Origin: Kiritimatiellia bacterium
Lineage (GTDB): Bacteria > Verrucomicrobiota > Kiritimatiellia > JAAZAB01
Direction of reading: 5' to 3'
Length of the DNA: 10,501 bases
NCBI GenBank assembly: GCA_018400335.1
Contig: JAGYMT010000033.1
Coordinates: 1-10,501, forward strand
Position 1 is the stretch's first letter. The number at the start of each line of letters is the position of its first letter. The notes under the pieces are model-generated. The model made no database searches. It was given only the letters and a program-made list of their open reading frames with translations, and had not been told where the DNA came from. The translations under genes and the position numbers were made by a program. This document shows, in pieces, positions 1-10,501 of this stretch.

Positions 1-810
1 CACGAGGAAAGAGTCTTCAACGAAAGCAGCTATTCCTATGGCATCCGCAAGCACCTGCTCGAATCGACGGACGATTTTCCGGTGGTCGAGTTCCTCATGG
101 CGTGCCTGCAATGCACGCCGAAATGGGAGCGGTTCCATGCCTGGAAAGCGGCGCTGGGCGATTTGGCCTATCCCTACGCGCAACTGCCGTATTCCGGATC
201 CGGCTACCTGATCTCGCGCAATATGGGGGTCGAGAAGACTGTTTTCGCGGCGCTTGACGAGCCGGAAAAAGTCCTGAGCCTGGTCGCTGCGGTCAATGCC
301 TGCAATTTGCGCGTCCTGGACGCCATTCTCGACGGCCCGTTCGAGACCCTGATCATCAGCGACAACTACGACAGCAACGTCCAGACGAAGGACTTTTTCG
401 ACCGCTACGTCCGCGAGTACTACACGGAGGTCGCCCGGCGGCTGCACGCCCGCGGCAAGTACCTGGCGGTGCATGTGGACGGCGAAAGCCGCGGCGTCCT
501 CGGCTGGCTGGCCGAATGCGGCGTGGATTGCGCCGACGCCCTGACCCCCGCGCCGATGTTCTCCCCGACCCCGGCGCAAATGCGCGACCAGGCCGGCCCG
601 GACCTGATTCTTTCCGGCGGCGTCCCGCCCACGATTTTCGGTCCCGGCGCGTCGGACCGGGAGTTCGACGATTGCGTCAAGCGCTGGCTCGACACCCGAC
701 TGACCTCGCCGCGGCTGATCATGGCCGCAGGCGACCAGGTGCCGATCGAAGCGCCCTTCGAACGGATCGCCCGGCTGCCGGAGCTGGTCGAGCGGTATGG
801 GAGGTATTGA
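1..810 (+). CDS. Uroporphyrinogen decarboxylase-family (UROD/MtaA-like) protein, 5' end outside window
   Basis: The frame is open from base 1 and ends at the TGA at 808-810, giving the last 269 residues of a protein whose start lies upstream. The layout fits the UROD fold family, which includes haem-pathway decarboxylases and the methyltransferases MtaA, MtbA and CmuA. A segment reading LAVHVDGES followed by LAECGVDCADAL sits where methyltransferase members carry their HxC zinc motif, and LILSGGVPP plus LIMAAGDQVP match the C-terminal strands of the barrel. Both positions where methyltransferase members have zinc-binding Cys appear to be Asp here (codons at 478-480 and 733-735). There is no haem-synthesis context; its neighbours are carbohydrate and amide enzymes, so a methyl-transfer or other sugar-linked role is more likely than porphyrin decarboxylation, but this is inference. 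The stop is 3 bases before the next start, which implies co-translation. Fold assignment is fairly secure; the reaction is not. Confidence 0.8.
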   Translation, partial: HEERVFNESSYSYGIRKHLLESTDDFPVVEFLMACLQCTPKWERFHAWKAALGDLAYPYAQLPYSGSGYLISRNMGVEKTVFAALDEPEKVLSLVAAVNACNLRVLDAILDGPFETLIISDNYDSNVQTKDFFDRYVREYYTEVARRLHARGKYLAVHVDGESRGVLGWLAECGVDCADALTPAPMFSPTPAQMRDQAGPDLILSGGVPPTIFGPGASDREFDDCVKRWLDTRLTSPRLIMAAGDQVPIEAPFERIARLPELVERYGRY

Positions 811-813
811 GGT

Positions 814-1950
814 ATGAAGATCATGAATCAAGGAACCGTGTTTTCAAGTGCGCCCGGAACCGACCGCCAGAGCTGCGCGTTTCCGCAGGTGGCGGTGCTG
901 CCGGGCGGGCGCTGGCTGGCCGCCTGCCGGGCCGCCTGCAGTAAGGGCGGCAAGGATGGTCAGCATGTGATGCTGGCCATATCGAACGACGAGGGCCGGA
1001 ACTGGCGGATCGACAAGGCGCCTTTCGACGCGCCCGTTCTCGACGGCAAGCCCGGCCAGTTCCGGGCGCTGGGGCTGACCGCGCTCGGCGACCGCCGTGT
1101 GCTGGCCACGTTGTACTGGGTGGATAATTCCGATCCGTCGCTGCCCTTCTTCAATGAGCAGACCGAGGGGCTGCTCGACTCGCGGATCCTGTTCGCCGAG
1201 TCGGAGGACGGCGGGGACTCCTGGACAGCGCCGACACTGATGGACACCACGCCCTTCAACGTGCCCACGCCGATCACCGGGCCGCTATTGTTGCTGCCCG
1301 ACGGCGAACGGGTCTGCCAGTTCGAGACCAACAAACCCTATTACGACACCACGAAATGGGTACATCGCTCGGTGCTGATGTTTTCGCGTGACGGCGGACG
1401 CACTTGGCCGCACCATGCGGTCGTTACCGAGGATCCGCGCGTTTTCTATTGGGACCAACGCCCACAAGTTTTGCCGGACGGACGGATTTTCGACTTGTTC
1501 TGGACCTACGACAACCAAGCCGGCGCCTACCTCAGCATCCACGCCCGCGAGTCGCGCGACGGCGGCCGGACCTGGTCGGCCCTGTGGGATACCGCCGTGC
1601 CCGGCCAACCGGCGCCCGTGGCGCCGCTCCCTGACGGGCGGCTGGTCATGGTCTATGTGGACCGCAGCGGCGCGCCGGCAATTCGTTTACGGACCAGCGC
1701 GGATGACGGGCGCACTTGGCCCGCCGATACGACGTTGACGCTTTACGAAAGCGTGTTGCCCAGCCAAACGACGCGCAAGGACGGGATGGCGGACGCCTGG
1801 TCGGAAATGGGCAAGTTCTCCGTTGGGCTGCCGACCACCGCGGCGTTGCCGAATGGCGATGTCCTGGTGGTCTATTACGCCGGCCCGGCGACCGATAGCA
1901 CGAGTATAGAGTGGGTGCGGGTGAAGTCCCGCCTTCGACAATCATCATAG
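814..1950 (+). CDS. Sialidase-fold (BNR/Asp-box) protein, probably cytoplasmic, catalytic activity doubtful
   Basis: The protein has 378 residues and five Asp-box repeats of the S-x-D-x-G-x-x-W type at residues 57-64, 130-137, 191-198, 247-254 and 295-302. This spacing is typical of a six-bladed sialidase beta-propeller. The start at 814 is preceded by GGGAGG at 799-804; an in-frame ATG at 823 is the alternative. No signal peptide or membrane segment is visible, so it should act in the cytoplasm. The region near residue 28 that should hold the (F/Y)RIP motif with the first catalytic arginine reads CAFPQVAVLPGG, so that Arg seems absent. Cleavage of sialic acid is therefore uncertain; it may be a hydrolase for another sugar or a binding protein. 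It overlaps nothing, but its stop codon forms part of the next gene's Shine-Dalgarno region, which indicates tight translational coupling. Confidence 0.82.
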   Translation: MKIMNQGTVFSSAPGTDRQSCAFPQVAVLPGGRWLAACRAACSKGGKDGQHVMLAISNDEGRNWRIDKAPFDAPVLDGKPGQFRALGLTALGDRRVLATLYWVDNSDPSLPFFNEQTEGLLDSRILFAESEDGGDSWTAPTLMDTTPFNVPTPITGPLLLLPDGERVCQFETNKPYYDTTKWVHRSVLMFSRDGGRTWPHHAVVTEDPRVFYWDQRPQVLPDGRIFDLFWTYDNQAGAYLSIHARESRDGGRTWSALWDTAVPGQPAPVAPLPDGRLVMVYVDRSGAPAIRLRTSADDGRTWPADTTLTLYESVLPSQTTRKDGMADAWSEMGKFSVGLPTTAALPNGDVLVVYYAGPATDSTSIEWVRVKSRLRQSS

Positions 1951-1959
1951 GAGATTCTG

Positions 1960-4275
1960 ATGCAGAACTGGACCTTTACGGAGTTAGACGCGCGCCTGGC
2001 CGCGGAACTGCGGGACCAACTGCCGCCGGTTGTGTTCGACGCCCACGCGCATGCGTGGCGGACGGCTGATTTGGCGGATTCTTCTTCGGGACTCTGGGCG
2101 GAGGGCCCCGCGAAGGCCGGCGTGGACGCCTGGCGGCAGCATGTCGGGCGCCAGGTCGGCAACGAGCGCTTGGCTGGCGGCTTGCTGATTCCCAATCCCT
2201 TGGTCGGCGATGCCGTCGCCCGGGCCAACGCATTCGTCTTCGAACAGATCGCCGGTGACGCCGCCATGAGGGGACTGGCGCTGGTCACGCCGCACAGTGT
2301 GCCGGGCGCATACGACTCACTTTTCGAGAATCCACAGTTCGCCGGATTCAAGCCGTACCACGTCTTCAGCGAGCACCGACCTACTTTCCAGGCGCCGTTG
2401 TCCACGTTCCTGCCCGAATGGGCCTGGGAAATGGCGCACGCCCGGGGCTTGGCGATCACCCTGCACATGGTTCGCGACAGGGCGCTGGCGGACCCGGAGA
2501 ACCGGCGCGAGATCGCCGACCATTGCCGCCAATATCCCAATGCCCGCCTGATTCTGGCACACGCGGCGCGCGGCTTTCATGCGCCGAATACCGTCAACGG
2601 CATTGCCGGTCTGCGCGGGCTGGAGAATGTCTGGTTCGACACCTCGGGCATCTGCGAATCCGAAGCGCTCGCAGCCATTCTGCGCGAATTCGGTCCGCGA
2701 CGCCTGATGTGGGGCACCGATTTCCCGGTCAGCGAAATCCGCGGCCGCTGCGTCACCGTCGGCGACGGGTTTGCCTGGCTGGAGCCAGGCTCGGTGGCGT
2801 GGGACAAGACCGGGCCGCAGGGCTGTCCGACGCTGGTCGGCCTGGAAGCGCTACGTGCGCTGTTGTCCGCCTGCGACATGCTTGGGCTGAACGCCGCCGA
2901 CCGGCAGGATATTTTCGCCGACAACGCCCGCCGGCTGTTCGGGCTGCTGTCCGAATCGGGCACATTGACCCAGGATCTCTACCGGCATGCCAAGGACCGT
3001 ATTCCCGGCGGCACGCAACTGCTGAGCAAGCGCCCGGAAATGATGGCGCCCGGGCAATGGCCTGCGTACTTTCGCGAAGCCCGCGGCTGCGAGGTCTGGG
3101 ATCTTGACGGCAGGCACTACTATGATTTCTCGACCAACGGTATCGGATCCTGTCTGCTCGGATTCCGCGATCCCGACGTGACGCGCGCCGTGCGCCGTCG
3201 GATCGAGCTGGGAAGCATGTGCACTCTGAATCCCCCGGAGGAGGTCGAGCTGGCGGACTGGCTGTGCGCGCTGCACCCCTGGGCGGAACAGGTGCGCTTT
3301 GCGCGCTGCGGTGGCGAAGCCTGCGCCATGGCCGTCCGCATCGCCCGCGCCACTACGGACCGGTCGGTGGTGGCGCTCTGCGGATATCACGGCTGGCAGG
3401 ACTGGTATCTGGCGGCGAATCTCGGCGAAAGCGACGCCTTGCGCGGCCACCTGCTTCCCGGCCTCAACCCGCTCGGCGTGCCGCGGGAGCTGCGCGGCAC
3501 CACCGATACGTTCGCCTTCAATGACCGCGCCGCATTCCAGGCGCTGCTCGACCGTCACGGCGACAGGCTGGCCGCCGTGATCATGGAGCCTTGCCGCTCC
3601 CAGGATCCGAATCCGGGGTTCCTCGAATTCGTCCGCGATGGCGCCCATCGCGCCGGGGCTTTGCTTATTTTCGATGAGATCACCATCGGTTTCCGGCTGC
3701 ACCGTGGCGGCGCGCACTTGAAATTCGGCGTCAGCCCGGACATCGCTGTCTTCGGCAAGGCGCTGGGCAACGGGCACCCGATGACGGCAGTGATCGGCAG
3801 CAGCGCGGCCATGGCCGGCGCGCACGGTTCGTTTATCAGCAGCACCTACTGGACCGAAAGCGTCGGTCCCGTGGCGGCGTTGGCGACATTGCGCAAAATG
3901 GCGGAGGTGTATTTGCCGGATCATCTTGCCCGCGTGGGATCGCGGATTCAAAGGTGCTGGGAAGAGAAAGGACGGCAGCACGGTCTGCCGGTGCATGCCG
4001 GCGGCTATCCCTGCCTGGCGCACTTCCGGTTCGACCACGAGCAAGCGGGCATTCTGCGAACGCTATACACCCAGCAGATGCTTGCCCGCGGATTTCTGGC
4101 CGGCACTGGACTCTATCCGACGCTGGCCCATACCCCGACTATCACGGAACGGTACGAGGAAGCCATTGACGGCGTCTTCAGTGAAATCGCCGGAGTGTTG
4201 GCGGACGGAGGCGATTTGACCCGACACCTTCGCGGCCCCGTCGCCCATGACGGGTTTCGACGGCTGGCGCGATAA
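1960..4275 (+). CDS. Bifunctional fusion: amidohydrolase (Amidohydro_2-like) + class III PLP aminotransferase (GSAM-like)
   Basis: One uninterrupted 771-residue frame encodes two enzymes. Residues about 20-328 form a metal-dependent amidohydrolase TIM barrel: HAH (H29, H31), K131 in GFKPYH, H169 in TLHM, H201 in LAHAARGF and D254 in WGTDFP, which is the ligand order expected for that superfamily. Residues about 335-771 are a fold-type I class III aminotransferase close to glutamate-1-semialdehyde aminomutase: RIPGGTQLLSKRP at the entry, D572 in IFDEITIGFR for the PLP ring nitrogen, and K600 in FGKALGNG as the Schiff-base lysine. The linker of about ten residues contains no stop or start that would separate the two. 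The start is set by AGGAG at 1949-1953. No export signal is present. A plausible role is hydrolysis of a lactone or amide followed by transamination, or amino shift, of the product, with direct transfer between domains; the substrate is unknown. Both active sites look intact, so this appears to be a working gene. Confidence 0.9.
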   Translation: MQNWTFTELDARLAAELRDQLPPVVFDAHAHAWRTADLADSSSGLWAEGPAKAGVDAWRQHVGRQVGNERLAGGLLIPNPLVGDAVARANAFVFEQIAGDAAMRGLALVTPHSVPGAYDSLFENPQFAGFKPYHVFSEHRPTFQAPLSTFLPEWAWEMAHARGLAITLHMVRDRALADPENRREIADHCRQYPNARLILAHAARGFHAPNTVNGIAGLRGLENVWFDTSGICESEALAAILREFGPRRLMWGTDFPVSEIRGRCVTVGDGFAWLEPGSVAWDKTGPQGCPTLVGLEALRALLSACDMLGLNAADRQDIFADNARRLFGLLSESGTLTQDLYRHAKDRIPGGTQLLSKRPEMMAPGQWPAYFREARGCEVWDLDGRHYYDFSTNGIGSCLLGFRDPDVTRAVRRRIELGSMCTLNPPEEVELADWLCALHPWAEQVRFARCGGEACAMAVRIARATTDRSVVALCGYHGWQDWYLAANLGESDALRGHLLPGLNPLGVPRELRGTTDTFAFNDRAAFQALLDRHGDRLAAVIMEPCRSQDPNPGFLEFVRDGAHRAGALLIFDEITIGFRLHRGGAHLKFGVSPDIAVFGKALGNGHPMTAVIGSSAAMAGAHGSFISSTYWTESVGPVAALATLRKMAEVYLPDHLARVGSRIQRCWEEKGRQHGLPVHAGGYPCLAHFRFDHEQAGILRTLYTQQMLARGFLAGTGLYPTLAHTPTITERYEEAIDGVFSEIAGVLADGGDLTRHLRGPVAHDGFRRLAR

Positions 4276-4279
4276 CCCA

Positions 4280-4381
4280 TGGTAAAAGGAGGAAGATGAC
4301 ATGATTTTTGATCAACTTGAGAATGCAGCGTTGTATGGCGGGCTCGGCGAGCGGTTCCGGATGGCCTTGTCGTGGTAAAAG
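4280..4381 (+). repeat. 9-bp direct repeat bracketing the YhcH stub
   Basis: TGGTAAAAG occurs at 4280-4288 and again at 4373-4381, 93 bases apart. The first copy runs into the stub's Shine-Dalgarno sequence and the second supplies its stop codon (TGG TAA). The repeat may mark the endpoint of a slippage or deletion event that removed the rest of the gene, or may be coincidence. Confidence 0.5.
4301..4378 (+). pseudogene. YhcH/YjgK/YiaL (DUF386) family N-terminal stub, 25 codons
   Basis: A strong Shine-Dalgarno sequence (AAAAGGAGGAA, 4284-4294) leads to ATG at 4301 and a 25-residue peptide that begins MIFDQLENAALYGGLG and ends RFRMALSW. This matches the characteristic start of the YhcH/YjgK/YiaL cupin family (about 150 residues; some members, such as NanQ, are sialic-acid anomerases). 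The frame then hits TAA, and none of the three forward frames before the next gene at 4427 continues the family with its conserved metal-binding His and Glu residues. The gene is therefore cut to about one sixth. The perfect translation signal suggests that the loss is recent or that the stub serves as a spacer or leader between its neighbours. Identification rests on a short match, so it is tentative; a genuine unrelated small peptide is the alternative. Confidence 0.6.
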
Positions 4382-4426
4382 TGGCGGACGGGTGAACAGC
4401 GACAACCTTACAGAAGGATATATCCG

Positions 4427-4753
4427 ATGAGTATACAGAACATGCGCCAGAGCAGGGTGCTCCATAAACTGCGCAATGGCGAGGTGGCGAGCTGCTTCAA
4501 GCTCAACCTGGCCGATGCGCGGGCCGCCGAGCTGGCCGCCATGGCCGGCTTCGACTGCCTGTGGCTCGATCTGGAGCACGTTCCCAACGATCTGGCGGCG
4601 ATCGAAAAAGGAATCTGGGCGGCCAAAAGCCAGAATCGAGATGTCCTGGTCCGGGTGCCCCGCGGCAGCTATAGCGACACTATCCGGCCACTCGAGATGG
4701 ATGCCGCCGGCGTCATGGTGCCGCATGTCATGAGCCTGGCCGATGCCCTGTAA
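4427..4753 (+). pseudogene. HpcH/HpaI-type aldolase, C-terminally truncated (108 codons of about 255)
   Basis: The frame starts at an ATG preceded by AGAAGGA at 4412-4418 and ends at TAA 4751-4753. It matches the first half of the HpcH/HpaI aldolase family, which cleaves or forms 2-keto-3-deoxy acids with a divalent metal: VLHKLRNGEVASCFKLNLADAR, then WLDLEHVPND with the probable catalytic H51, then VLVRVPRGSYSD with the probable substrate Arg R76, then the GVMVPHV strand. It stops at MSLADAL, before the part that holds the metal-ligand Glu and Asp (H45, R70, E149 and D175 in HpaI). No frame downstream continues the fold, because the nitrilase gene follows within 20 bases. It cannot be an active aldolase on its own. 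It is most likely a deletion remnant; a sequence-assembly error that dropped the second half is possible. Confidence 0.8.
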
Positions 4754-4762
4754 CAACCATGA

Positions 4763-4770
4763 AGGGAGAA
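4763..4770 (+). promoter_or_regulatory. Ribosome binding site that sets a GTG start for the amidase gene
   Basis: AAGGGAGA at 4763-4770 lies 3 to 5 bases ahead of an in-frame GTG at 4774. The upstream ATG at 4759 overlaps this site and has no Shine-Dalgarno sequence of its own, and neither have the downstream ATGs at 4807 and 4810. Confidence 0.6.
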
Positions 4771-4773
4771 CGA

Positions 4774-5637
4774 GTGATTAACGCACGCAATACCACGGAT
4801 AGCACAATGATGACATCCTTGCATGTCGCCTCCGCCCAGATCAGCTCCGAGGCGGGCTCGCCGAAAACGCTGCCCCGGATGGACGCGCTCGCGCAGGCTG
4901 CGGCCTGCATCGGCGCGGAGATCATCCTTTTCTCGGAGGTGGCCGTCCACGGGTACGACTACGACATGACGCCGGAATCGGTGCGGGCCGTGGCGGAGCC
5001 GGTGGACGGACCTGTCGCGCGGGAGCTTCTCGCCATCGCTGCCCGGCGCCGGATCGTTGTTCTCGCCGGCATGTTCGAGCGGGATAATGACGCGGTGTAC
5101 AACAGCCACCTGATCGCCGAGCCGTCTGGTCGGCTACGCGTGCAGCGCAAGCACAACCTGACCGAAGGCGAGCGGCGCGCCCGGCTTACCCCGGGACCGC
5201 GAACATTGGAGGTCTTCTCCATCAACGGGATTCGCTGTGCGGTGCTGATCTGCGCCGACAGCGGGCTTGACGGGATGCCCGCGGAGTGCCGTCGGCTCGG
5301 AGTGCGGGTGCGTTTCTTGCCCACAGGCGGCGGCGGCAAGCTGGACGAGATGCTGTGTCAGCGCGACCTGGCGACACCGGAAGGTCGCGGGAAATACGAA
5401 CAGAACCGTCCGCGCGTCTTCCTGCCGGATGCCTTTGACCCGAAGTTTGCCGAGTGGGGCAGCGCGCTGGTCACGGCCAACGCGCTTGGCCCTGCAGGCG
5501 CCGCCACTTGCCATCAGGGGCACTGCGTTATTGTGGACAACATGGGCGTGCTGCGCGCCCAGGCCGTGGGCACAATCGTGCGGGAGCACATGCACGAGCA
5601 GTTGATCAACGCCGTGCTGCATTTTCCAGGCGCATAG
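4774..5637 (+). CDS. Carbon-nitrogen hydrolase (nitrilase superfamily amidase)
   Basis: With the GTG start at 4774 the protein has 287 residues, normal for this family, which hydrolyses amides, carbamoyl groups or nitriles by a Glu-Lys-Cys triad. The three elements are visible in the right order: E55 in IILFSEVAVHG, K126 in VQRKHNLTEGER and C160 in CAVLICADSG (add 5 if the ATG at 4759 is used). The segment HNSHLI-like YNSHLIAEPSGRL and the late block GHCVIVDNMGVL fit the alpha-beta-beta-alpha sandwich. No signal peptide is present. It follows the aldolase stub by 20 bases and precedes the GH5 gene by 26, so it belongs to the same transcript. The substrate cannot be read from the sequence; an amide or carbamoyl group on a sugar-derived compound would fit the cluster. 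Family assignment is secure. Confidence 0.88.
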   Translation: MINARNTTDSTMMTSLHVASAQISSEAGSPKTLPRMDALAQAAACIGAEIILFSEVAVHGYDYDMTPESVRAVAEPVDGPVARELLAIAARRRIVVLAGMFERDNDAVYNSHLIAEPSGRLRVQRKHNLTEGERRARLTPGPRTLEVFSINGIRCAVLICADSGLDGMPAECRRLGVRVRFLPTGGGGKLDEMLCQRDLATPEGRGKYEQNRPRVFLPDAFDPKFAEWGSALVTANALGPAGAATCHQGHCVIVDNMGVLRAQAVGTIVREHMHEQLINAVLHFPGA

Positions 5638-5663
5638 CGCCGTCCGGAGGGGCGGAAAAAATC

Positions 5664-6797
5664 ATGAATGATAACGAAAGAATAGAGACGAGCGAGAGAA
5701 AACCGGCATTTCCGTTTCATCGGGGAAGCAACCTGGGAGGCTGGCTTTCGCAGGCAAATGTGCGCGACGAAACGCATCTGGCCGGCAAATACCGGCGCGA
5801 GCACATCGCCCGGCTGGCCGCCGCCGGTTTCGACCATCTGCGTTTGCCGGTGGACTACGAGCTGATCGAAGAGACGGAATCGCCGCACCGATTGCGCAAG
5901 CAAGGGATGCGCTGGGTGGAACAAGCCATAGACTGGACCTGGGCCGAAGGGCTGGGCGTGACGCTCGATTTGCACAAGTGCGCGGGCATGTCCTTTTTTA
6001 CCCCCGAGATCAACCGGCTCTGGGAAGATGCCGGGCTACAGCGCCGGTTCGCCGGCCTCTGGCGAAAGCTGGCCGGACATTTCGCCGGAGCGCCACACGA
6101 TCGCCTCGTATTCGAACTGCTCAACGAACCGACGTCCGCCGATAACGAGCGGTGGAATGACCTTGCGGCACGGGCGCTGGACGCCATCCGCGAGGTCGAT
6201 CCGCGGCGTTGGGTCGTGATCGGCTCGAATTCCTGGAACGTGCCGTCAACCTTCGCCGACCTGCGCGACTTCCGCGACCCGCGTGTGGCCTACGCCGTGC
6301 ACTGGTATGAACCGTTTATTTTTACGCATCAGAAGGCGACATGGTGTGAGTGGCTGAAACGACTCGACCTGGCCGTCGCCTATCCGAGCGTGATGCCCGA
6401 TCTGGCGCCAAGGCAGGCGGAACTTCGCGATCCGGCCTGGCGCGAGCAGATGATGCTTTTTTCGGAGCAAACCTTGAATTATGAACGCATGGAGCGTTGT
6501 TTTGCGCCCGTGGCGGCGTTCGCGGCGCGCACCGGAGCGCCGATCTACTGCACCGAGTTCGGTTGCTGGGATCCGGCTCCGCCGGAGTCGCAGCTCGGCT
6601 GGTTCCGCGACTCCCTCAAGCTTTTCGCCACCCATGGTGTGGCCTGGGCGCAATGGGAATACGGTTGTCTGTTCGAACGCGACGGCAGGGCAAAGCCGCC
6701 GCTGGCGGTGTTGTTCGCCGATGACAAGACATCTTTCCTTCCCGACAATCCCGGTTCCTTGTGTCGGGAAAGAGGAGCATCACGTCCGTTAACCTGA
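5664..6797 (+). CDS. Glycoside hydrolase family 5 (cellulase-like) enzyme, no signal peptide
   Basis: The 377-residue protein has the hallmarks of clan GH-A family 5: RGSNLGGWLS near the start, R60 in HLRLPVDYE, the acid/base E155 in FELLNEP, H213 and Y215 in AVHWYEP, the nucleophile E298 in IYCTEFG, and the late Trp in AWAQWEYGC. The frame stays open upstream to 5454 but that stretch overlaps the amidase gene; the ATG at 5664 is chosen because GGAGGGG (5646-5652) precedes it and family similarity begins about 20 residues later. GH5 enzymes hydrolyse beta-linked glucans, mannans and related glycans with retention of configuration. The absence of an export signal points to action on small oligosaccharides or glycosides in the cytoplasm. 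The short polar C-terminal tail after FLPDNPG has no recognisable domain. It is the last gene of the block; no clear terminator follows. Linkage specificity is not predictable here. Confidence 0.9.
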   Translation: MNDNERIETSERKPAFPFHRGSNLGGWLSQANVRDETHLAGKYRREHIARLAAAGFDHLRLPVDYELIEETESPHRLRKQGMRWVEQAIDWTWAEGLGVTLDLHKCAGMSFFTPEINRLWEDAGLQRRFAGLWRKLAGHFAGAPHDRLVFELLNEPTSADNERWNDLAARALDAIREVDPRRWVVIGSNSWNVPSTFADLRDFRDPRVAYAVHWYEPFIFTHQKATWCEWLKRLDLAVAYPSVMPDLAPRQAELRDPAWREQMMLFSEQTLNYERMERCFAPVAAFAARTGAPIYCTEFGCWDPAPPESQLGWFRDSLKLFATHGVAWAQWEYGCLFERDGRAKPPLAVLFADDKTSFLPDNPGSLCRERGASRPLT

Positions 6798-6855
6798 ATC
6801 CGGCAGTGGCATTCTTTCTGACAGGGATACATCCTCTCCTATTGCTCTTTCCAGG

Positions 6856-6881
6856 ATTATTCGCGAATCATTGCGAATAAT
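6856..6881. promoter_or_regulatory. Perfect 9-bp inverted repeat (operator or hairpin)
   Basis: ATTATTCGC (6856-6864) is the exact reverse complement of GCGAATAAT (6873-6881), with 8 bases between. A 10-bp palindrome ATTCGCGAAT (6859-6868) sits inside it, and GCGAAT is also repeated directly at 6863 and 6873, ten bases apart, about one helical turn. It lies 58 bases after the GH5 stop and 187 before the next start. No T-tract follows, so it is not a standard terminator; a transcription-factor site for the downstream gene is the more likely reading. Confidence 0.5.
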
Positions 6882-6906
6882 TGAGGTCGGATGTGGACGA
6901 ACTGCC

Positions 6907-6924
6907 TGCCAGCTCCGCCTGGCA
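6907..6924. repeat. Small REP-like hairpin
   Basis: TGCCAG (6907-6912) and CTGGCA (6919-6924) pair around the loop CTCCGC. It resembles the short GC-rich palindromic repeats found dispersed between genes in many genomes. Only one copy was noticed in this window, so repeat status is unproven. There is no T-tract, hence no clear terminator role. Confidence 0.35.
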
Positions 6925-6964
6925 ATGTCCCCGGCATTCAAAACATCACCGGAAGATGCTGGAT

Positions 6965-7011
6965 AAAAAAAGCGAAAAACTGGAACACGGAAAAAAACAT
7001 TCTGCTATGAT
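6965..7011 (+). promoter_or_regulatory. Candidate promoter region with A-tracts and extended -10
   Basis: A-tracts at 6965-6971, 6975-6979 and 6991-6997 make this stretch far more AT-rich than its surroundings. TGCTATGAT at 7003-7011 resembles an extended -10 element; no good -35 hexamer is seen at the proper distance. It would start transcription about 50 bases before the large gene at 7069. The call is weak and based on composition and position. Confidence 0.3.
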
Positions 7012-7068
7012 TCAATCCAATTATCGAAGGCGTTTTTCCCGGGTCTCAAAAAACGAAGGAGGGATCGA

Positions 7069-10000
7069 ATGAGAAGGAAATTCATTTCAGACTTGTTTTA
7101 TTCCGTTTTGCGCGCGTTCGACAAGAGGTTTGTCTCAACGGTATTGCGCGGGATTCCGGCAGCCGTCGCTCTCATCTGCCTGACGCTGGAGACGTCGGCG
7201 GACAATCGTGTATTCGCCTGCCGCAATTGGATTGACCGCGACTGGCCGCAGACGCTGCTGCATTACGACATCGAGGCGAAAGCGGGCGAATTCGCGCCCG
7301 GCAAGCTCGAACTGGTTGACGCGGAAGGCGCGCCGGTGGAATGCCAGGTGGATGTTGTCGAGAAGCATTCGGACGGCTCGATCAGGAAGGCGCGCGTCAG
7401 CTTCTACGCCGGCCTCACGAACGGCGCGGCGTGGAGCTACACGCTCAAGCCCTCATCTCGTCCGTCCGGGTTTCCTGATCGTGTGACCAGCCGCCGGCGC
7501 GGCTGGTTGCGGACGCAGGCGATCGAGGTGGCCAATGCCGAAGCGGGAGTTTTACTGCCGCCACCCGGCGAGAAGACGTTCAAGACGTCCGTCGAGCCCA
7601 AGGATGTTCCCGCGCCCATCCTGGGTTGGCGGCTTTCCGACGGCAAGTGGGCGGGCAAGAGCTGGCTGGAGAGCGACCGCCAGGTGACGGGCTGGTCGCA
7701 GCGCGTGGTGGCCGACGGACCGTTGTACAAGGAGTACGAGTACGAAGTGCGTTTCGCGCCGGGCGCGCCGCCGCGCGACACGCCCGGTTACTACCGTGTT
7801 CGCGTCCGAATCGAGGCCGAAGAGCCGCTGGTCTTCGTTGCCGAGGAGTTCGACTTCGGCTGCATCACCGCCGGGAAGGACTGTTTCGTAATGGTCCTGA
7901 ACGACGGGTGGCAGCCGGATACGGCGGTGTTGTCGAGCTATAGCCAACCGGCAGGGCAGCCCGATCGAGTTCCGGGCAGCGGACGCGGCTCCCGTTCCTG
8001 GGACAACGGCACATGGGTTGCGCCTCTGGCGAAACTCGCCGATGCCGCGCCCGCGAATCCGTTCACAATGGAGCCCGCGCGGTTCGGAGCGGATGAGATG
8101 GGGCAATTGCGTCCACTTGCGATGATATGGCCGTGGCTGGATTTCAGCACGGGCGCGCAGTGGTTCAGCACTTTCGCGAATGCCGGCGCCGCCGACAGTC
8201 CGCAGGTCGGCTTGATGCCGATGCACGCCGGCGCCTGGCGTTTGACCGGTAAACATGCCCCGCGGATACTGGGCAGCCGAAATGGCGCGTTGCTGGCGCG
8301 CATGCCCATCTCGGTGCCGCTAAGCGGGTTCATGTCCAACCCGTTTAATAGCGGCGAGATGGATCCCGACCTGCCGCAGACGCTTGGCCGGCGCATGTGG
8401 GCGCTGGCGCTCGGCCCGCGGCCCGCCGTGAAGATGAAAGCGGACGGCACGACGCCCACGCTGGATGTTTCCGCCATGGATGAGTATCGCTCCTACCATG
8501 GTTACATCACCTTGGACGACTACAAGGATTGGGTTCTCGACTGGCCAGAGGCGCCGAGCGTCACACGCCCGCGGGTGTTCACCACGCCCGCGGATCTAGC
8601 CCGCCTCAAGGCGAACCTCGACCGATGCCCCGGGAAAGAGGCGATCAAGGATTGCTCGCTGATCACCGGTGATCCGAAGACCGCGGAGGCCGAGGCGAAG
8701 CAGGCCTCGTCATGGCTCGAAGGCGGCATTGGCGACATGCTGCAATGGTATATCGCCCACTTTAGGATGACGCAAAATGCCTATGGCCCGGGCTTTCGCG
8801 CCGACAGCGCCCTGGTCTGCCCGGAGCTCCCCGATGAATTGCGCCGGGAGCTGCGGGCGCGACTGGCGCTTGTCTGTCAGATATGGACCCACCCCGATTT
8901 CAATCCACGCGGCGCGGCGTTTCATCTCGGCAACCCGAACATGCCGATCAATCGCGACATGGGACTGTCGCTCTACGCCGGGCTGATCCCCGACCATCCG
9001 AAGGCGAAGGAGTGGATGGAGAAAGCTATGCGTCGCCTGGAATGGAAAGCGGAACACAACATCGCCTCGGGCGGCGGCATGTTCCGCGAGAACCAGCCTT
9101 ACACGACCTACGGCCCGAGCATTTTCCTGACCACCGCGGCGGTGGCGCTGCGCAACAACGGCTACGACATCAGCGGCGTCCTGCCCGCCCTCAAGGAGCT
9201 GGCGCTGCACCTCAACGGCATTGACACTCCTCCCACGATCACGCGCGCCCCGCGCCCAAATTACAAGGACGGGCCGCTGAAGGATGACCGCAAGGTGCGC
9301 GTGATCCCCGGCTTGATGGGCGGACGCGATGTGCCCGGCGGCCAGACCCGCATGATGCTGGCCAACCTGACGGCCAAGAGCGACCCCGCCTTTGCATCGG
9401 AGATGATGGGCGCGTTCCAAGAGGCAGGCGCCTTCCTCGGCACGGAGATGATCGGGCCGGAGCAGTGGTTCTACTGGAACCCGGACGTCGTCGCAAAGAC
9501 CCCGCCGCGCCCCGATCAGATCTTTGCCGGGCTGGGCGGAGTCCTTCGCGCGCACGTCGGGACGCCCGAAGAGGCCTGCTTCGCGTTGCGCATGGGCTAC
9601 TCGCAGCAGCGCGGCACCGACCAGGGCGCATTTGCGCTCTACGCCTATGGGGCCAACCTGATCCGCACTTACGGCGCGCATGACCCGGCCAAAGGCCTGT
9701 GGCGCCATCCCGTGGTGGTCTACGGCGAGCCGCCCGCGGAGCACGAGCACGGCCGCGTGGACACCAATATCGAGGACTACGGATTCCTGCCTTCGGTCGG
9801 CTACCTGCTCGGACGCCAGACCTACAAGGGCCGACTCGACGCGATTGAGGCATTCAGGAAACGCTATCCCGGCGTCGAGCCGGAACTGATCTGGGACAAG
9901 CAGTTCCAACTGCTGAAGAACGACTTTGTCCGCAGCCGCCAGGTGGTGATGCTGCGCTCGACCGCGCCGTCCGGGCCAACCTATTACGTGATGCGCGACA

Positions 10001-10501
10001 CGACGCAGGGCGACTGTCCGCTGCCGACCCGCTGGCATCTCGCGCTGACCGCCGGCGCCGACAACGTCAAGCCGATCCCCGGCGGCGTGCGCGCGGTGGC
10101 GCAGCAGGATCCCGCGGTCAAGCTGGACGTGCTGTTCGTCGAACCGGCCAATCCCGAGGTGGCGATCATCCCGGAGCCGCCGGATCACGGCGACACGAAC
10201 GCCTACGCGCAGATTCGGGTGGCCCAACCGGTGGGGAAAGGGTATCTGACGGTCTTGTACCCCCACCGCGAGGGCGATCCGGCGCCAAAGAGCGTGGAAA
10301 GGCTGGGCGACGGAATCGTCAAGATCGTCACCGCCGAAGCGACCGACTATGTGTTCTGCGCGGTGGATGAACCCGTGGTCTTCAAGGACGACGTGGTGGA
10401 TATCAACGCCATGGCCGGAGCGGTGCGGGTGTTCAAGGACAAGGCGCTGCTGGTCAACGCGGCGGGACAACACGGCTCGGTGGGTTACAAGGGGGTGGTT
10501 G
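7069..10501 (+). CDS. Large secreted heparinase II/III-like (polysaccharide lyase-like) protein, 3' end outside window
   Basis: From ATG 7069, set by AAGGAGG at 7056-7062, the frame runs without a stop to the window edge, giving 1144 codons so far. Residues 1-44 form a signal peptide with a long basic N-region, hydrophobic core GIPAAVALICLTL and likely cleavage after TSA at 44. Residues about 50-480 are beta-rich; the opening (NWIDRDWPQTLLHYDIEA, LELVDAEGAPVECQVDV, DGSIRKARVSF) resembles the N-terminal barrel of exo-rhamnogalacturonan lyase (YetA)-like proteins. From residue 499, TRPRVFTTPADLARLKANL is the entry typical of the alpha/alpha toroid in heparinase II/III and alginate-lyase-like proteins, followed by FHLGNPNMPINRDM (618-631) and ENQPYTTYGPS (674-684), where such enzymes carry catalytic-site residues. 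GTDQGAFALYAYG (849-861) matches their usual HxHxDqgsF block but lacks the histidines. The rest is beta-rich. Likely role: extracytoplasmic attack on a polysaccharide, possibly acidic; catalytic competence is uncertain. Confidence 0.75.
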   Translation, partial: MRRKFISDLFYSVLRAFDKRFVSTVLRGIPAAVALICLTLETSADNRVFACRNWIDRDWPQTLLHYDIEAKAGEFAPGKLELVDAEGAPVECQVDVVEKHSDGSIRKARVSFYAGLTNGAAWSYTLKPSSRPSGFPDRVTSRRRGWLRTQAIEVANAEAGVLLPPPGEKTFKTSVEPKDVPAPILGWRLSDGKWAGKSWLESDRQVTGWSQRVVADGPLYKEYEYEVRFAPGAPPRDTPGYYRVRVRIEAEEPLVFVAEEFDFGCITAGKDCFVMVLNDGWQPDTAVLSSYSQPAGQPDRVPGSGRGSRSWDNGTWVAPLAKLADAAPANPFTMEPARFGADEMGQLRPLAMIWPWLDFSTGAQWFSTFANAGAADSPQVGLMPMHAGAWRLTGKHAPRILGSRNGALLARMPISVPLSGFMSNPFNSGEMDPDLPQTLGRRMWALALGPRPAVKMKADGTTPTLDVSAMDEYRSYHGYITLDDYKDWVLDWPEAPSVTRPRVFTTPADLARLKANLDRCPGKEAIKDCSLITGDPKTAEAEAKQASSWLEGGIGDMLQWYIAHFRMTQNAYGPGFRADSALVCPELPDELRRELRARLALVCQIWTHPDFNPRGAAFHLGNPNMPINRDMGLSLYAGLIPDHPKAKEWMEKAMRRLEWKAEHNIASGGGMFRENQPYTTYGPSIFLTTAAVALRNNGYDISGVLPALKELALHLNGIDTPPTITRAPRPNYKDGPLKDDRKVRVIPGLMGGRDVPGGQTRMMLANLTAKSDPAFASEMMGAFQEAGAFLGTEMIGPEQWFYWNPDVVAKTPPRPDQIFAGLGGVLRAHVGTPEEACFALRMGYSQQRGTDQGAFALYAYGANLIRTYGAHDPAKGLWRHPVVVYGEPPAEHEHGRVDTNIEDYGFLPSVGYLLGRQTYKGRLDAIEAFRKRYPGVEPELIWDKQFQLLKNDFVRSRQVVMLRSTAPSGPTYYVMRDTTQGDCPLPTRWHLALTAGADNVKPIPGGVRAVAQQDPAVKLDVLFVEPANPEVAIIPEPPDHGDTNAYAQIRVAQPVGKGYLTVLYPHREGDPAPKSVERLGDGIVKIVTAEATDYVFCAVDEPVVFKDDVVDINAMAGAVRVFKDKALLVNAAGQHGSVGYKGVV

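Follow-up and report, generated by a model that had tools for sequence, protein, structure and literature searches.

Why should an amidohydrolase and a class III aminotransferase be made as a single polypeptide? The question is posed by one gene (Table 1) in a stretch of 10,501 nucleotides from a Kiritimatiellia bacterium (assembly GCA_018400335.1, contig JAGYMT010000033.1, positions 1 to 10,501), hereafter the window. An earlier note on this DNA had described a one-frame fusion of the two enzymes, with H29, H31, H169, H201 and D254 as the amidohydrolase ligands and D572 and K600 at the pyridoxal phosphate (PLP) site, and each of these placements was borne out. The amidohydrolase half (AHD) matches PF04909 over residues 27–329 at 60.7 bits, above the Pfam cut-off of 26.4, and the aminotransferase half (AT) matches PF00202 over residues 368–665 at 133 bits, above the cut-off of 30.5, which makes it a class III member. 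When the best 120 matches are aligned, the window protein being one of them, 117 conserve H29 and H31, with gaps in the other three rows, and all 120 conserve the remaining five residues. All seven are invariant across a broader set of 67 sequences and present in 43 of 45 other fused frames checked; the exceptions are L039, whose frame is interrupted by a contig end, and L212, which has N at the K600 position. The fused gene is genuine, and both active sites are present.

The fusion is not unique, and it is more ordinary than the earlier note had supposed. A protein search scored 7999 candidates, of which 7171 had E ≤0.001; the best 120 of these, window included, all carry both Pfam domains, and the 119 others share 62–81% identity with the window protein at query coverages of 80–100%. 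Among the best 80 of 477 relatives kept from a contig search of named genomes, fusions were found in Verrucomicrobiota, Planctomycetota, Lentisphaerota, Armatimonadota, Cyclobacteriaceae, Paenibacillus and others, and lone ATs in Hydrogenedentota, Lentisphaerota, Patescibacteria, Pelagibacteraceae and others. Open, full-length fusions occur in at least 7 of 194 sampled Verrucomicrobiota genomes (the phylum of G001), at least 8 of 246 Planctomycetota genomes (the phylum of G002) and at least 6 of 104 Paenibacillaceae genomes (the family of G003); these are lower bounds because only 3–10 candidates per genome were scored. A frameshift, an assembly join or a chance read-through is ruled out by these three samples and by the 119 other two-domain matches with their high coverage. 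The single point noted in favour of such an artefact is a relative (L036/L222) whose gene is split into two frames. A lone AT with 80% identity (L017:3–1535) begins at the end of its contig, its first part looking, by eye, like the tail of an AHD domain; it may therefore be a cut or decayed fusion.

Fused and separate versions both exist, and the earlier note's alternative, that homologues might always be two separate genes, does not hold. In the Verrucomicrobiota sample 19 genomes matched; besides the seven with fusions, 12 differ in arrangement, with adjacent halves in G193, a match to the AT half alone in ten, and AHD alone in G159. One of the ten, G176, turned out to have a distant AHD (26% identity) beside its AT (66%), their frames overlapping by 8 bases, in the row AHD, AT, Gfo/Idh, SDR, HpcH aldolase, SDR, AKR (L137). 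Another locus, L219, reads symporter, propeller protein, HpcH, Gfo/Idh, PhyH, an unlabelled gene, SDR, AT, AHD. At L136 the AHD (28%) adjoins the AT, at L071 and L074 the order is AT, PhyH, AHD, and at L041 the halves lie on opposite strands about 1.8 kb apart with two other frames intervening. In five of nine Hydrogenedentota genomes searched (G006, G008, G009, G010 and G019), an AT (~70%) and a close AHD (>400 bits; 45–50% identity in the four measured) lie on different contigs. Neighbours are also partly shared where a half stands alone: the lone AHD of L145 lies near AKR, SDR, the small protein families c44 and c30, and a gene weakly resembling DapA (27%), and the lone ATs of L028 and L033 lie near SDR, c44, c30 and DapA genes. 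These separate-gene versions strengthen the functional link between the halves, in line with the earlier note's proposal that they catalyse linked, consecutive steps. The c30 and c44 families pair up beside both AT-only and AHD-only loci (L028:12855–13768; L145:10895–11919), and their L028 copies have no Pfam match at E 1e-5.

An AT tree was rooted on four HemL-like proteins after 12 of the 85 rows of an earlier tree (unrelated class III copies and partial or broken rows) had been removed. Fused and unfused ATs are intermixed in it and at least seven changes are needed, any row other than one fused frame being scored as unfused; 21 of the 76 inner branches are weak. In different genomes the AT is joined to five domain types: AHD, BNR, AKR, cytidylyltransferase and 2-hydroxyacid dehydrogenase. 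In an Acidobacteria genome (L043:8507–11299) it is fused to a BNR protein that is 39% identical to the one encoded at 814–1950 of the window, and at L074 it is fused to a 2-hydroxyacid dehydrogenase. Pelagibacteraceae carry an AT fused to AKR and SpsF-type cytidylyltransferase domains (L065:1–2487) and two ATs with an apparent cytidylyltransferase, judged by eye on the basis of their length and first residues (L068:9254–11272; L072:9254–11290); given these fusions, the domains probably act together in making nonulosonic acid.

Around the fusion clusters, genes for SDR, Gfo/Idh, AKR, HpcH-type aldolase, PhyH and BNR proteins and a sodium symporter recur. Co-occurrence was counted over 118 loci, namely 121 less the duplicates L130, L134 and L222; L146 repeats L069, which leaves 117 distinct loci. 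Forty-five are fused (window included), 8 have both halves in different frames, 7 (6 without the repeat) have AHD only, 24 have AT only with NeuB or SpsF, 32 have AT only with neither, and 2 (L072 and L077) fall below both the AT and AHD thresholds. The class with different frames includes a broken frame (L036) and a locus that has a fused gene as well as a lone AT (L207); true separate-gene pairs number six (L041, L071, L074, L136, L137 and L219). In a scan with 12 partner queries (E 1e-12, 30% identity, 55% coverage), at least one partner, such as SDR, Gfo/Idh, AKR or aldolase, was matched at 23 of the 45 fused loci, and at 18 of 40 once the five query-supplying loci were excluded. None of 20 control regions (20 kb each, taken in 11 of the genomes from contigs that carry matches) matched any of the 12 queries; NeuB was found in one.

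L212, the most complete operon, has genes for a solute-binding protein, HpcH, a 2-hydroxyacid dehydrogenase, a dehydratase of the enolase superfamily, SDR, the fusion, a regulator (by eye), AKR, Gfo/Idh, another SDR and another Gfo/Idh. Its HpcH protein is nearest YfaU, and its dehydratase scores highest, though under the cut-off in each case, with arabinonate, galactonate, talarate/galactarate and gluconate dehydratases. A dehydratase of this type (68–70% identity) adjoins a 2-hydroxyacid dehydrogenase at L135 and L073, where the AT halves retain their catalytic residues. Several neighbours are sugar-acid enzymes, as the sugar-acid route proposed in the earlier note would have it. The L073 cluster also holds window-like URO-D and BNR genes and a full-length HpcH gene; its MttB-family and URO-D-family genes lie at L073:8514–9947 and 13182–14291.

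What, then, does each half resemble? Since the rows listed by a fold search with the whole model were AT matches, a separate model of the AHD was made for a search of its own. Its predicted fold lies nearest the COG3618/PF04909 sugar lactonases, which rank first, with decarboxylase folds within about 2.4 Z units, at 19–21% identity; unlike these lactonases, the window protein is fused to an AT. The COG3618 entries 4dlf and 4do7, titled only as amidohydrolase from Burkholderia multivorans, are presumably its L-fucono-1,5-lactonase.

For the AT, glutamate-1-semialdehyde aminomutase (GSAM) and its kin are the nearest sequences, and the earlier note had called it GSAM-like. As a statement of function this fails: the HemL model TIGR00713 gives 182.2 bits against a cut-off of 527.3, and the HemL motifs SPVRAF and SWGP are replaced, in comparison with four proteins (L223, L224, L225 and L227) taken as HemL by motif rather than by score; a class III protein without these motifs (L226) and an AHD relative (L228) were not used as HemL. 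The GSAM-named model PRK06209 also stays below its cut-off (221.7 bits against 486), as do all 25 NCBIfam models listed for the AT. With the HemL/PRK06209 group the AT shares the class III PLP fold, the PLP-site Asp and Lys, and about 28% identity to 5i92; it differs in its scores, in its motifs and in being fused to AHD. Among the best matches in both sequence and fold are the 3-aminobenzoate synthase PctV (4zm3/4zm4, which binds 3-dehydroshikimate) and the aminopentol aminotransferase FumI (6hbs/6hbv), which, in contrast, are single aminotransferases from other pathways, with 25–30% identity to the window AT. Some genes named glutamate-1-semialdehyde aminomutase probably encode something else.

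The partners fit an oxidation by dehydrogenase, lactonase, dehydratase and pyruvate aldolase, and an AT would handle the amine; the set therefore points to an amino sugar. The reading we favour, at a probability of roughly 0.4, is that the protein serves an oxidative, non-phosphorylating route for an amino sugar, as a bifunctional enzyme whose AHD half opens an aminoaldonolactone and whose AT half takes off the amine. SDR or Gfo/Idh dehydrogenases would oxidise C1 to give the aminoaldonolactone, which the AHD half would hydrolyse to the aminoaldonate. Using PLP bound at K600, the AT half would pass the amine on to a keto acid; the ketoaldonate left behind would be reduced to an aldonate by 2-hydroxyacid dehydrogenase, AKR or SDR. 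A dehydratase could then form the 2-keto-3-deoxy acid, and an HpcH- or DapA-type aldolase could split it into pyruvate and an aldehyde. Free 4- or 5-amino aldonates cyclise to lactams, and direct hand-over of the opened acid to the AT, which would avoid this dead end, could explain the fusion in chemical terms. That lactonase and aminoaldonate transaminase were fused so that deamination precedes lactam closure, in a pathway that PVC bacteria, Bacteroidota and Bacillota have in common, is a more tentative and rather doubtful extension. Lactonase activity, transamination, substrate, step order and channelling are what we infer; the fused frame, the catalytic residues, the recurrent neighbourhood and the fold kinship are observations of this analysis. 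Non-phosphorylating L-fucose and L-rhamnose pathways likewise use an SDR dehydrogenase, a COG3618-type lactonase, a dehydratase and an HpcH-type aldolase, whereas the loci here add AT, Gfo/Idh and AKR, and a dehydratase is found at only three of them.

Several observations weigh against the amino-sugar route. Eight of the 23 partner-positive fused loci belong to one family, Cyclobacteriaceae, and 22 of the 45 fused loci matched none of the 12 partner queries; 14 of the 22 are shorter than 18 kb, and the eight longer ones (L005, L038, L075, L133 and L203–L206) indicate that other contexts exist. The dehydratase is as scarce as just stated, a 2-hydroxyacid dehydrogenase occurs in 5 of the 118 loci, and the route leaves the PhyH, URO-D, MttB and BNR partners unexplained. 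At L212 (8953–11136) the AHD ligands are intact and the adjoining sugar-acid genes look so too, but the AT has lost K600 and a large part of the stretch surrounding the GYHGWQDWY motif, so the route there must run without this transamination; we read it as a lineage using the lactonase part on an amine-free sugar. The two steps are not shown together there, and L212 supports only the AHD and sugar-acid part of the scheme. The lead of the COG3618 folds over the decarboxylase folds is small at such low identity. One Hydrogenedentota AHD (L069) opens with a Tat-like signal and seems, by eye, to be exported, which speaks against a strict AHD–AT partnership there. Finally, the lone AT relatives found in nonulosonic acid (NulO) clusters misfit an aminoaldonate substrate.

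These last relatives lead to the main competing explanation, which we regard as rather unlikely: the substrate would belong to the nonulosonic (sialic-acid-like) acids or be a related 2-keto-3-deoxy amino sugar, AHD would open its lactone, AT and AKR would interconvert amine and hydroxyl on it, and the fusion clusters would serve breakdown and the NulO clusters synthesis. Lone AT relatives stand beside NeuB and/or SpsF in 24 of the 118 loci (the 17 NeuB and 19 SpsF genes there follow by definition, the loci having been chosen by them); these ATs, at about 39–56% identity, are accompanied by NeuB, SpsF, PseG-like or DegT genes. Yet NeuB or SpsF is found at none of the 45 fused loci, and Gfo12, BNR9 and PhyH at none of the 24 NulO loci. 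For AKR the outcome varies with the search, which gave 0 of 18 NulO loci with one query at ≥35% identity and 9 of 24 with three queries at 30%. AKRs from the two contexts partly share motifs and are interspersed in a tree that has no outgroup, and the AKR and SpsF-type domains fused to the AT of L065 fit the same explanation. The presence of a BNR protein, a sodium symporter and aldolases would be in keeping with breakdown of a sialic-acid-like compound, but the BNR family lacks, in an alignment read by eye, the Arg at what we take to be the position of the sialidase RIP motif. In the published record, the consulted part of one article places a GSAM-named gene, which was not compared with the window AT, beside PseG in a Legionella O-antigen cluster (PMC3694923), and an excerpt of another describes an AKR–SpsF protein in a pseudaminic-type cluster (PMC7371886); the portion of text checked in a third (PMC3765264) contains no GSAM-named gene of this kind.

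Two further possibilities concern the chemistry of the halves. AHD might strip an N-acyl group, after which AT would remove the freed amine, in the manner of NagA and NagB; the GH20-, GH4- and GH57/38-type genes at the lone-AHD locus L145 would suit breakdown of an N-acyl amino sugar, but the named enzymes among the nearest 50 AHD folds listed are lactone hydrolases and decarboxylases, with no deacetylase, although a list of that length is not proof. We consider this possibility improbable. Slightly less probable still is an AT that shifts an amine or releases ammonia, for instance on an alpha-amino aldehyde set free by the aldolase, instead of transaminating. Its kinship with GSAM and the inclusion of lyases in class III (the PbfA model gives 103.9 bits, against a cut-off of 525) speak for such an activity; the replaced motifs and the uniformly low NCBIfam scores speak against it, and it leaves the fusion to a lactone-type AHD unexplained.

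No description of the AHD–AT fusion or its gene set was found in the open-access literature, preprints not being covered, which agrees with the earlier note's statement that no established pathway uses this pair. The nearest subject there, as far as the accessible part of the article goes, is glucosaminate-6-phosphate ammonia-lyase (PMC9529869), and fuconolactonase is treated in a passage of PMC13406643. Both domains belong to known families, and their pairing and gene set appear to be undescribed. The result is thus a widespread, apparently uncharacterised bifunctional enzyme with a candidate gene set, and the amino-sugar route is directly testable because named Cyclobacterium, Lunatimonas and Paenibacillus strains have the fusion.

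Table 1. Features of the window, with codon positions of the catalytic residues.
Feature	Position	Strand	Remarks
URO-D family protein	1..810	+	PF01208; 5′ end outside window; 3 bases upstream of BNR gene
BNR/Asp-box protein (BNR9)	814..1950	+	PF13088; 9 bases upstream of fusion
Fused protein AHD + AT	1960..4275	+	771 aa, ATG to stop; 0 internal stops
AHD half, residues 1–331	1960..2952	+	Metal-ligand set H29, H31, H169, H201, D254
H29 codon	2044–2046	+	AHD ligand
H31 codon	2050–2052	+	AHD ligand
H169 codon	2464–2466	+	AHD ligand
H201 codon	2560–2562	+	AHD ligand
D254 codon	2719–2721	+	AHD ligand
AT half, residues 334–771	2959..4272	+	PLP-site D572 (3673–3675), K600 (3757–3759)
HpcH/HpaI aldolase, N-terminal remnant	4427..4753	+	PF03328, partial
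Nitrilase-superfamily CN_hydrolase	4759..5637	+	PF00795; Glu-Lys-Cys motif positions chosen by eye

Downstream of the fusion, the aldolase remnant mentioned in the earlier note is confirmed as such: tblastn covers residues 5–106 of the 274 of an HpcH/HpaI aldolase at 65.7% identity and found no remaining part in the window, and full-length relatives sit in other clusters. The "amidase" of that note stands as a nitrilase-superfamily protein, but its role as a pathway member is unsupported: in 120 other loci and the 20 control regions the only match, in L030, is partial and weak (33% over 127 residues). The frame at 7069–10500 runs off the window end and encodes 1144 aa or more, for which neither Pfam nor NCBIfam gave a match at E 0.001. 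Upstream, the gaps between the URO-D, BNR and fusion genes are so short that the three look like one operon, and an AGGAG-like stretch precedes the fusion ATG (by eye). The BNR protein matches PDB chains weakly at best, an uncharacterised one at E 4.6e-05 and sialidases at 0.001. Homologues of the URO-D gene occur at L073, L001 and L017, with 79% DNA identity to the one at L001.
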